Shown one piece after another: positions 7,558 to 16,500 of a stretch of DNA of 64,000 nt (position 1 is the stretch's first letter; every line of letters begins with the position of its first letter). Made by a program: the position numbers and the translations under genes. Source of the stretch: Mya arenaria (lineage: Eukaryota > Mollusca > Bivalvia > Myida > Myidae); assembly GCF_026914265.1 (NCBI RefSeq), contig NC_069124.1:88675733-88739732 (forward strand), in the 5' to 3' direction. The notes under the pieces are model-generated. The model ran no database searches. It was given only the letters and a program-made list of their open reading frames with translations, and was not told the origin of the DNA.

Positions 7558-10500
7558 CTGAAATGTCTACAAAAACACACACGGCTGGTAACCATTGTTC
7601 GACTTTTAAAATAGACCGGAACAGAAACAACTGAAAACCGACCACATTCTGGGAGAAGAGCACTTAATAACAAAAAATGGGTACCGCACCTCCCAGCTGG
7701 AGCCGTATCTGATGATGTGGTAGAGCCAACCAATGGGAATCCAGACGGCGGCGAACGCGGCCATCGTCCATCCGATGGCCACCGCCCACTGGGGATATTC
7801 GTAGACGCCCTTCGGTCGCTTGTAGTCAAGTTCGGAGTAGCTGATAGTGCTTAACACGAAAATTACCTGAAATATTTTTTATTAAAAATCCATTTGATCT
7901 GTCGTCGGTAACCACGATACTTTCTTACACTACACTTCAAACATTCCGTGGAAAAATTGACTGACAAAATGTGAGTAAAGATGACGAGACAACGCTTCTT
8001 CCAATGGATTCACATGTTACAATTAAATACTCTTAAATAACCCTGTACTGTCAGTTTACCCGCAAGTCTAAATGGCTGGCTTAAAACTAAAAAGCAGTTT
8101 TCAGACGGACGGACTTTTATTCAAGCTTTCGTCGGAATGCTTTTTATACGGGAAACTTTAGAACGAGCGTGTGTGCAAATGTGAGTGTCAGAATTCCGGA
8201 GAGGGTTTATTGCGAAACCAATGAAACTGCCTCATCGATAAGTCATGACCTCGAGATGTTCCTAACCATGCCGACCAAGGTACACAACGACGGATACCGC
8301 AGTAGTGCGTAGGTGAGCCCGACTTCGTGGAGTCTTTATCAGCTCTACATGATATCTATTGATCCGAATCCCGATGACGTAAACAGAAGTCTACATTTAC
8401 TGTACTAACCATGCAGAATATTGGACTCAGAACAGTCCAGCAGATGGCCATGTATGGGTTGATTCTCCAACCGTACATCATTTCCAGGTTGTCATAGAAA
8501 CGGCGAATACCTGCAATAATAATTGTAACACATTCAGTTGTTTTGTAAAGTGTAGCTTTTATTTTAAAAGGTGTTTTGATGATCAATTCCTAACAGAAAA
8601 TGTCGACAAAATGCGATCCATAGCTATGTTACATGATCTAAATCCGATAAAATACCAGGACATATTTTGATAATGCATGCCTTACCACAACACCAAGATA
8701 TGTGTGGATGACTCACGCCTTACCACAACACCAACCTATGTGTGGATGACGCACGCCTTACCACAACACCAAGATATGTGTGGATGACGCACGCCTTACC
8801 ACAACACCAAGATATGTGTGGATGACGCACGCCTTACCACAACACCAAGATATGTGTGGATGACGCACGCCTTACCACAACACCAAGATATGTGTGGATG
8901 ACGCACGCCTTACTACAACACCAAGATATGTGTGGATGACGCACGCCTTACCACAACACCAAGATATGTGTGGATGACGCACGCCTTACCACAACACCAA
9001 GATATGTGTGGATGACGCACGCCTTACCACAACACCAAGATATGTGTGGATTCCGCACGCCTAACCACAACAACAGGATATGTGTGGATGACGCACGCCT
9101 TACCACAATACCAGGATATGTGTGGATGACGCACGCCTTACCACAACACCAGGATATGTGTGGATGACGCACGCCTTACCACAACGCCAAGATATGTGTG
9201 GATGACGCACGCCTTACCATAACACCAGACTATGTGTGGATGACGCACGCCTTACCATAACACCAGGATATGTGTGAATGACGCACGCCTTACCACAACA
9301 CCAGGATATGTGTTGATGACGCACGCCTTACCATAACACCAGGATATGTGTGGATGACGCACGCATAACCACAACACCAGGATATGTGTGGATGACGCAC
9401 GCTTTACCATAACACCAGGGTATGTGTGGATGACGCACGCCTTACCATAGCCCCAAGATATGTGTGGATGACGCACGCTTTACCATAGCACCTGGATATG
9501 TGTGGATGACGCACGCCTTACCATAACACCAGGATATGCCTTACCATAACACCAGGGTATGTGTGAATGACGCACGCCTTAAAACACCACCAGAATATGT
9601 GTGGATGACGCACGCCTTACCATAACACAAGGGTATGTGTGGATGACGCACGCCTTACCACAACACCAGGATATGTGTGGATGACGCACGCCTTACCATA
9701 ACACCAGGATATGCCTTACCATAACACCAGGGTATGTGTGAATGACGCACGCCTTAAAACACCACCAGAATTTGTGTGGATGACGCACGCCTTACCACAA
9801 CACAAGGGTATGTGTGGATGACGCACGCCTTACCACAACACAAGGGTATGTGTGGATGACGCACGCCTTACCACAACACCAGGGTATGTGTGAATGACGC
9901 ACGCCTTAAAACACCACCAGAATATGTGTGGATGACGCACGCCTTACAATAACACCAGGGTATGTTTCGATGACGCACGCCTTACCACAACACCAGGATA
10001 TGTGTGGATGACGCACGCCTTACCATAACACCAGGATATGCCTTTCCATAACACCAGGGTATGTGTGGATGACGCACGCCTTACAACACTACCAGGATAT
10101 GTGTGGATGACGCACGCCTTACCATAACACCAGGATATGCCTTACCATAACGCCAGGGTAAGTGTGGATGACGCACGCCTTACCATAACACCAGGATATG
10201 CCTTACCACAACACCAGGATATGTGTGGATGACGCACGCCTTACCATAACACCAGGATATGCCTTTCCATAACACCAGGGTATGTGTGGATGACGCACGC
10301 CTTACAACACCACCAGGATATGTGTGGATGACGCACGCCTTACCATAACACCAGGATATGTGTGGATGACGCACGCCTTACCATAACACCAGAGTATGTT
10401 TCAATGACGCACGCCTTACCACAACACCAGGATATGTGTGGATGAAGCACGCCTTTACCATAACACCAGGGTATGTGTGGATGACGCACGCCTTACCATA

Positions 10501-13500: not shown

Positions 13501-16500
13501 TGTGTGGATGACGCACGCCTTACCAAAACACCAGGATATGGGTGGATGACGCACGCCTTACCATAACACCAAGATATGTGTAGATGACGCACGCCTTACC
13601 ACAATACCAGGATATGTGTGAATGACGCACGCCTTACCAAAACACCAGGATATGTGTGGATGACGCACGCCTTACCACAACGCCAGGATATGTGTGGATG
13701 ATTCACGCCTTACCACAATACCAGGATATGTGTGGATGACGCACGCCTTACCACAATACCAGGATATGTGTGGATGACGCACGCCTTACCACAACACCAA
13801 GATATGTGTGGATGAAGCACGCCTTACCATAACACCAGGATATGTGTGGATGACGCACACCTACCATAACACCAGGATATGTGTGGATGACGCACGCCTT
13901 ACCACAACACTAAGATATGTGTGGATGACGCACGCCTTACCACAATACCAGGATATGTGTGGATGACGCATGCCTTACCAAAACACCAGGATATTTGTGG
14001 ATGACGCACGCCTTACCATAACACCAGGATATGTGTAGATGACGCACGCCTAACCACAATACCAGGATATGTGTGGATGACGCACGCTTTATCATAAAAC
14101 CAGGATAGGTGTGGATGACGCACGCTTTATCATAACACCAGGATATGTGTGGATGATTCACGCCTTACTACAATACCAGGATATGTGTGGATGTCGCACG
14201 CCTTACCATAACACCAGGATATGTGTGGATGTCGCACGCCTTACCACAACACCAAGATATGTGTGGATGACGCACGCCTTACCATAACACCATATGTGTG
14301 GATAACGCACGCCTACCATATACCAGGATATGTGTGGATGACGCGCGCCTTACCACAATACCAAGATACGTGTGGATGACGCACGCCTTACCACAACACC
14401 AGGATATTTGTGGATGACGCACGCCTTACCATAACACCAGGATATGTGTGGATGACGCACGCCTTACCACAACACAAGGATATGTGTGGATGACGCACGC
14501 TTTACCATAACACCAGCGTATGTGTGGATGACGCACGCCTTACAACACCACCTGGATATGTGTGGATGACGCACGCCTTACCACAACACCAGGATATGTG
14601 TGGATGACGCATGCCTTACCATAACACCAGGATATGTGTAGATGACGCACGCCTTACCACAATACCAGGATATGTGTGGATGACGCACGCCTTACCAAAA
14701 CACCAGGATATGTGTGGATGACGCACGCTTTATCATAACGCCAGGATATGTGTGGATGATTCACGCCTTACCACAATACCAGGATATGTGTGGATGACGC
14801 CCGCCTTACCACAATACCAGGATATGTGTGGATGACGCACGCCTTACAACAACACCAGGATATGTGTGGATGTCGCACTCCTAACACAACACCAAGATAT
14901 GTGTGGATGAAGCACACATTACCATAACACAAGTATATGTGTGGATGGCGCACGCCTACCATAACACCAGGATGTGTGTGGATGACGCACGCCTTACCAC
15001 AACACCAAGATATGCCTTACCATAACACAAGGGTATGTGTTGATGACGCACGCCTTACCACAACACCAGGATATGTGTGGATGACGCACGCCTTACCACA
15101 ACACCAGGATATGTGTGGATGACGCACGCCTTACCACAACACCAGGATATGTGTGGATGACGCACGCCTTACCACAACACCAGGATATGTGTGGATGACG
15201 CACGCCTTACCACAACACCAAGATATGTGTGGATGACGCACGCCTTACCACAACACCAAGATATGTGTGGATGACGCACGCCTTACCACAACACCAGGAT
15301 ATGTGTGGATGACGCACGCCTTACCACAACACCAGGATATGTGTGTATGACACACGCCTTACCACAACACCAGGATATGTGTGGATGACGCACACCTTAC
15401 CACAACACCAAGATATGTGTGGATGACGCACGCCTTACCACAACACCACGATATATGTGGATGACGCACGCCTTACCACAACACCAGGATATGTGTGGAT
15501 GACGCACGCCTTACAATAACACCAGGATATGTGTGGATGACGCACGCATTACCACAACACAAGGATATGTGTGGATGACGCACGCTTTACCATAACACCA
15601 GGGTATGTGTGGATGACGCACGCCTTACAACACCACCAGGATATGTGTGGATGCCGCACGCCTTACCATAACACCAGGATATGCCTACAATAACACCAGG
15701 GTATGTGTGGATGACGCACGCCTTACAACACCAGCAGGATATGTGTGGATGACGCACGCCTTACCATAACACCAGGATATGTGTGGATGACGCACGCCTT
15801 ACCATAACACCAGGGTATGTTTCAATGACGCACGCCTTACCGCAACACCAGGATATGTGTGGATGAAGCACGCCTTACCATAACACCAGGATATGCCTTA
15901 CCATTACACCAGAGTATGTGTGGCTGACGCACGCCTTACCATAACACCAGGGTATGTTTCAATGACGCACGCCTTAGCACAACACCAGGATATGTGTGGA
16001 TGAAGCACGCCTTACCATAACATCAGGGTAAGTGTGGATGACGCACGCATTACCACAACACAAGGATATGTGTGGATGAAGCACGCTTTACCATAACACC
16101 AGGGTTTGTGTGGATGACGCACGCATTACCATAATACCAGGGTATGTTTCGATGACGCACGCCTTACCACAACACCAGGATATATGTGGATGACGCACGC
16201 CTTACCATAGCACCAGGATATGTGTGGATGACGCACGCCTTACCATAGCACCTGGATATGTGTGGATTACGCACGCCTTACCATAGCACCTGGATATGTT
16301 TCGATGAGGCACGCCTTACCATAACACCAGGCAACGGCAACGCACATGAAGGCTGCGACAAAGAGGATGATTCTACTTCCGGAATAGTAATCGAATAGCT
16401 GGAACACATACATCCCGCCCTGGAAGCAGTTAACGTTTTGAAAAATTGTCTTATTTACTATGCATTTATAACGAGGAATGTTTATTTTTAGGTGGCTAAA

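Follow-up and report, generated by a model that had tools for sequence, protein, structure and literature searches.

How does a gene keep using one 5' splice site when that site is repeated some two hundred times in the intron behind it, and where did the repeats come from? The question is raised by a 64,000-nucleotide stretch of the genome of the bivalve Mya arenaria (C3:88675733-88739732 of a 1.216-Gb assembly; hereafter the window, whose first base is position 1), which lies in a tandem cluster of three genes of the SLC6 transporter family. In gene 2, the intron between exons 11 and 12 is filled with a 38-bp array whose unit carries the splice donor of exon 11; exon numbers are working numbers, ours and those of an earlier sequence-only reading of this DNA, with no full gene model behind them. 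We propose that the array is an exon-intron-boundary minisatellite (a 'mirage') that grew from the exon 11 junction, that the true donor is chosen by proximity and that the decoy donors are neutral, an account in which we place considerable confidence.

The exon 11 border and the 38-bp array

Joined together, exons 11 and 12 of gene 2 match the TauT, BGT1 and GAT chains (transporters of taurine, betaine and gamma-aminobutyric acid) with a best E of 2e-17, which places the gene in the SLC6 family; SNF family (PF00209) matches are present in the window. The features of this part of gene 2 are as follows.

16320..16419, minus strand: exon 11 of SLC6 gene 2, 100 nt, ending CCTGGTGTTATG at the donor
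16319-8511, minus strand: intron after exon 11, 7,809 nt
8654..16331, minus strand: donor-bearing 38-bp minisatellite of 208 units (Tandem Repeats Finder, TRF, and wrap-around alignment)
16294..16331, minus strand: first array unit, 12 exon and 26 intron bases around the real donor ATG|GTAAGG
8660..8697, minus strand: last whole unit, the most diverged of the 208 (21%)
about 8900..13340, minus strand: internal tandem duplication of 2,191 bp at about 99% identity (approximate span from 250-bp blocks; TRF rows near 9439-10392 and 11630-12583)
8654..8659, minus strand: CCTGGT at the distal array end, identical to the six bases at the array start in the exon (16326-16331), a possible founding direct repeat
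8511..8653, minus strand: the sole part of the intron outside the array, with the acceptor TTATTGCAG
8410..8510, minus strand: exon 12, 101 nt

We infer the exon 11-intron border from the paralogs and from SLC6 homology; it falls at the junction CCTGGTGTTATG|GTAAGG on the minus strand, with the exon end at 16320, which confirms the sequence-only reading. That reading had also taken the exon border to be the first unit of an array of about 200 copies, and both statements held. TRF reports the array at 8654-16331 as two adjoining rows that extend 12 bp into exon 11 and make up 98% of the intron, while wrap-around alignment resolves 208 whole units and one partial unit, 186 of them 38 bp long, 14 of 23 bp and the rest of 22-39 bp. 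The further claim that nearly every unit repeats the junction stood for near-copies only. The 18-base junction CCTGGTGTTATGGTAAGG was found exactly in 41 of the 208 units, with at most one mismatch in 106, at most two in 164 and at most three in 195, and the two exact forms that had been named occur 41 and 58 times. It had been said beforehand that an alignment lacking these shared bases in most units would speak against the reading; they are present, with at most two mismatches, in those 164 units.

The likeness between exon and array is not due to chance, since the array, counting its first unit, holds 57 exact copies of the last 12-mer of exon 11, whereas 77 other 12-mers of the exon find best fits there with 2-6 mismatches. 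Among the 33 mapped donors of the gene cluster, gene 2 exon 11 is the only one whose last 12 exon bases recur exactly within the next 8 kb. The homology begins abruptly at CCTGG, which is preceded by CCGTTG in the exon and by ACATAT in 139 of the 207 later units. The array is also confined to this place: all 94 genome matches of the exact unit 18-mer TGTTRTGGTAAGGCGTGC lie within this intron, and among the at least 90 matches listed in a looser DNA search, 88 fall at this locus and two at the exon copies in genes 1 and 3. The two CpG sites of the unit are little decayed, CG being kept in 180 and 174 of 193 units, and the array may be young or unmethylated.

Origin of the array

In order to establish whether exon or array came first, we compared the end of exon 11 with its relatives. 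The exon tail encodes W-C-Y-G, and the SLC6 motif W.YG is present in all five aligned SLC6 chains; at this position the paralogs have WCYG (gene 1) and YIYG (gene 3). Gene 1, a tandem paralog lying about 22 kb further left, shares the exon and the phase-1 intron behind it; that intron is 912 bp long and lacks the 38-bp array, its one array being a small unrelated one of 19 bp in mid-intron, 296 bp from the donor. Gene 3, the paralog within the window, has the same exon ending SYIYG|GTCAGT, and its equivalent intron of 167 bp is likewise without the 38-bp array. Because both paralogs possess the exon and the intron without the array, and because the unit 18-mer is found only here, the array was in all likelihood built from the junction, in gene 2 and after the gene duplication; the alternative that it was lost twice is less simple. 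Judged from these comparisons, the origin of the array is exon-first.

We infer the exact founding event as follows: 38 bp spanning the junction, 12 from the end of exon 11 and 26 from the start of the intron, would have been tandemly duplicated in gene 2 after the SLC6 gene duplication, possibly by way of the short direct repeat CCTGGT. Growth to 208 units would then have proceeded by slippage and unequal exchange, including one step of about 2.2 kb. The array stretch of 2,191 bp duplicated at about 99% identity indeed points to a contribution of large unequal exchange. The proposal of the sequence-only reading that the array arose at the junction by slippage or unequal exchange is thus supported by the W.YG-coding tail, the array-free paralogs and this duplication.

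Decoy donors and the choice of the first

The sequence-only reading had expected on the order of 200 near-perfect decoy donors and had suggested scoring all units. Scoring was run as U1 duplex energy, not with a trained splice-site model, and showed that 151 of the 207 later units equal or better the U1 pairing of the real donor (-8.5 kcal/mol), which itself ranks fifth among the 33 mapped cluster donors; in 60 of the 207 the 9-mer is identical to it. The decoys are numerous and, by U1 pairing, mostly no weaker than the real donor. These values replace earlier counts from a gapped alignment (54/208 identical, 143/208 as strong), in which gaps broke the donors of short units. If exon 11 is read on into the array, a stop follows after 50 nt. 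Use of a decoy would give a stop, leaving no open frame through exon 12, at all 191 GT-bearing positions defined by alignment (the partial last unit included) and at all 163 decoys defined by motif; these two counts and that of 190 of the 208 units with GT at the donor position rest on differing definitions. On the gene strand, the 7,666 array bases hold few acceptor-like sites, 6 CAG and 19 TAG, 8 of these 25 having at least 10 pyrimidines in the preceding 15 bases; AAG occurs 192 times, mostly within GTAAGG. Neither AATAAA nor ATTAAA occurs in the array.

In 193 of the 209 aligned units, mean consensus is 0.965 at donor bases +1 to +6 and 0.958 over the remaining intron-derived positions; among the 38 cyclic windows of the unit, the donor window ranks 12th. 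As the donor bases are conserved about as much as the rest of the unit, the decoys look like neutral passengers, neither preserved nor purged. The same figures bear on a functional alternative. U1 can protect long introns from premature polyadenylation, and the many U1 sites might guard this intron or tune the output of the gene through unproductive splicing, as the 151 decoys of at least equal strength, the absence of AATAAA and ATTAAA and the stop in all tested decoy products would allow; however, the donor bases are no more conserved than their surroundings, the missing poly(A) signals are a consequence of the sequence being repeated, and a comparable array on C9, described below, has mostly lost its GT (15 of 82 units keep it and 63 begin ATGAGT). 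We regard a functional role as improbable.

The true donor is most likely picked for its position: of all the donors it is closest to the 3' splice site upstream, from which only the 100 nt of the exon separate it, and 7.8 kb of intron follow it. Exon definition would probably select the first donor. In a database of alternative sites, competition between near-equal donors in exon-definition settings is described as favouring whichever lies closest, over the exon, to the 3' splice site, smaller exons being preferred (PMC9225289), a preference that, together with the short exon and the long intron, points to unit 0. With many donors and few acceptor-like sites, the array could mainly lengthen exon 11, and any leakage to decoys would yield stop-containing mRNA to be removed by nonsense-mediated decay. 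The human gene IFI6 resembles gene 2 in that a repeat at the exon end supplies repeated donors; two downstream units are reported to be used there, giving three mRNAs (PMC4526556), whereas the 38-bp period in gene 2 shifts the frame and all tested decoys give a stop. By analogy with the two units used in IFI6, some leakage to units 1 and 2, masked by nonsense-mediated decay, is plausible. Nature has in effect set up an experiment on donor choice at this locus: behind the real donor stand about 150 decoys of equal or better U1 pairing, in the same orientation and at regular spacing, which show no sign of selection.

Several points weigh against this account as a whole. IFI6, the closest human case, does splice from downstream repeat units (PMC4526556). 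The proximity bias is modest, the upstream donor winning 60% of all near-equal competitions (PMC9225289), and intron 10 of gene 2, upstream of exon 11, is just 178 bp long. Our U1 scores are duplex energies calculated with the U1 end, not the output of a trained model. Founding by a direct repeat rests on six bases, whose chance agreement we estimate at about 1 in 4, and inspection by eye revealed no such repeat at the array of gene 3 exon 10. Finally, the boundary units are not clearly distinct: the last unit ranks first of 208 in divergence but the first only 27th, and the mean divergence by tenths of the array (0.037-0.065) peaks beside the exon.

Boundary arrays elsewhere and in other genomes

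We extended the analysis to the 28 mapped introns of the three tandem genes, comparing 33 donors and 31 acceptors with 200 Markov shuffles of their flanks. Copies of the border beyond all 200 shuffles were found at three of the 33 donors (gene 2 exon 11, gene 3 exon 10 and gene 3 exon 6) and at none of the 31 acceptors. The features of gene 3 concerned are listed below.

49577..49717, minus strand: exon 10 of gene 3, 141 nt
47664..49586, minus strand: 39-bp array in intron 10; its unit contains the exon 10 end and donor, TGGTGTGCAGG|GTACGTATG
42647..47028, minus strand: 53-bp array in intron 10, stopping 9 bp short of the exon 11 acceptor, with no significant exon homology
50011..50628, minus strand: 22-bp array in intron 9, from intron position +3, with no exon bases
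55613..56204, minus strand: 68-bp array in intron 6, in which copies encoding the exon 6 tail precede a CAG|GTACAG donor

The exon 10 array agrees with its border at 23 of 23 bases, 11 of them exonic, and the exon 6 array aligns with its border over 48 bases, 45 of them exonic; in each case none of the 200 shuffles reached the score. Between the 68-bp array and exon 6 (56440-56574) lie diverged copies. Read-through from exon 10 into the 39-bp array is open for 1,266 nt. Of its 43 decoys defined by motif, 32 match the U1 pairing of the real donor, 6 add a multiple of three and 4 give open products, the in-frame ones being few despite the open read-through because of indels. At exon 6, none of the 9 motif-defined decoys is as strong as the real donor and none is open.

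Among 17 array-in-intron entries, array ends no more than 10 bp from a splice site occur 4 times compared to 0.54 expected (P = 0.0014); the counts are 2 within 5 bp (P = 0.03) and 4 within 20 bp (P = 0.013). The gene 3 exon 10 array, which began 84 bp from the donor in this count, is outside the four, although plus-strand TRF extends it into the exon. For the arrays at 50011-50628, 42647-47028 and 39131-41048, one end is 2-9 bp away from a splice site of gene 3, and they have no significant exon homology. An acceptor-side mirage at gene 3 exon 11 was not supported, its border alignment not being among those that beat the shuffles. A donor motif within the unit was rejected as stand-alone evidence: where mononucleotide shuffles lead one to expect 2.7 array rows with a donor of -8.5 kcal/mol or better, 4 of the 48 have one, and two of these four rows are the gene 2 array itself while a third (55613-56204) has the motif on the wrong strand.

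Outside the cluster, we examined 59 exon loci of SLC6 and ABC-transporter genes, 46 of them distinct, taken as the best 30 of at least 97 SNF matches and the best 30 of at least 85 ABC_membrane matches (132 kinesin matches were left out). Thirteen near-identical pairs, such as L016/L017 and L047/L048, are found among the 59, and may be recent duplications or unmerged haplotypes; L016 and L017 are 99.97% identical, in opposite orientation and 2.7 Mb apart on C9. A first border scan, which gave 3 donor and 9 acceptor matches in 85 exon entries versus 28 of 170 intron-internal control centres, served as a lead only; individual cases were then retested against 500 shuffles, and the cluster with exact borders.

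One case is an SLC6 gene on C9 (L020, L076, L017; C9:35588249-35592729), in which an intron of 4,481 bp consists mostly of a 48-bp array built from the exon end and its donor. TRF counts 74.9 copies at 256-3842 from the donor, with more diverged copies nearer the exon, and alignment gives 82 units. Among 54 units selected by motif, each of 30 out of the final 36 exon positions is shared by 89% of units or more; the motif itself forces the last six. GT survives in only 15 of the 82 units, and 12 of these 15 belong to the 14 units closest to the exon, so that most of these decoys are dead; 7 are defined by motif and none is open. In a paralog of this gene the intron measures about 350 bp and holds no array of the kind. 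At L023 (1745-1801), a small donor-side duplication repeats CTGGGAACTCAG 40 bp further on, with GT changed to AT; it was found by TRF and not by the border scan, and its border was set by eye. Acceptor-side duplications of the intron end and apparent exon start are present at L044 (SLC6, C8) and at L063, L067 and L068 (ABC family, C4), and more weakly at L071. L075 passed the shuffle test and is not claimed, as it resembles an old exon copy; neither are L022 and L024 claimed as boundary arrays.

A broader reading would make splice donors the hot spots of minisatellite birth in this genome and the leading route of intron growth, arrays nucleating at the border, filling the intron and being tolerated as the spliceosome takes the first donor in spite of about 150 equal ones. 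We put this forward only tentatively, because all five donor-side cases are in SLC6 genes, a family sampled on account of the window, and none is claimed among the 30 ABC loci.

Two other explanations of the gene 2 array were weighed. Misassembly of the copy number or of the 2.2-kb duplication might be suspected in an assembly where 13 near-identical pairs occur among 59 exon loci, but is unlikely: the units differ among themselves, the coding exons on either side of the array are intact, and the junction of exon and array would stand whatever the copy number. That an unrelated intronic satellite reached the exon border and set the exon end, by its own sequence or by conversion, is very unlikely in spite of the 30,713 of 64,000 window bases covered by TRF and the three array ends within 10 bp of splice sites without exon homology, given an exon tail that encodes the W.YG shared by the five SLC6 chains (WCYG in gene 1, YIYG in gene 3), a unit 18-mer with no exact match elsewhere in the 1.2-Gb assembly, and exon-derived units at two more cluster donors and one on C9.

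Boundary arrays of this kind have precedents in other animals. In amphioxus, minisatellite-like tandem duplications of exon-intron boundaries, called mirages, are reported in Adh3 and in the globins BflGb6 and BflGb9; they are described as not interfering with regular splicing, and the mechanism that generates them is called unclear (PMC3087553). The gene 2 array resembles them in its tandem units across the border, many with AG/GT signals: its border unit holds 12 exon bases, and GT is present in 190 of the 208 units. It differs in scale, with 208 units of 38 bp over 98% of the intron compared to 3 and 6 units in two BflGb6 haplotypes and unit lengths of 10-72 or about 150-160 bp, and it lies in another genome, which holds several more boundary arrays. 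In genes of human segmental duplications, internal tandem repeats at exon-intron borders change intron structure (PMC2812944). These too are minisatellites at borders of duplicated genes; they average 30-bp units, 4 copies and 160 bp, coding exons contain half of them, and the border repeats can give rise to new introns. Among the boundary arrays compared, that of gene 2 is by far the largest. No mirage-type array outside amphioxus appeared among the matches listed from the open-licence literature, as judged from titles and abstract openings.

The kind of array is thus already described (mirages, IFI6); what is new is the size, the recurrence in one genome and the contrast between live and dead decoys. 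A single genome offers live stop-bearing decoys (gene 2), live decoys beside an open read-through frame, though with few open spliced products (gene 3 exon 10), mostly dead decoys (C9) and array-free paralogs, a set that bears on where intronic minisatellites originate.

Elsewhere in the window, exon 5 of gene 2 (28048) has an apparent GC donor, AAG|GCAAGT, where genes 1 and 3 have GT. Dispersed repeats at 17986-18600 and 20056-20655 have numerous relatives, in intron 12 of gene 1 (9.7 kb) and beyond it to the left, and one carries a AGCGGCCT minisatellite.

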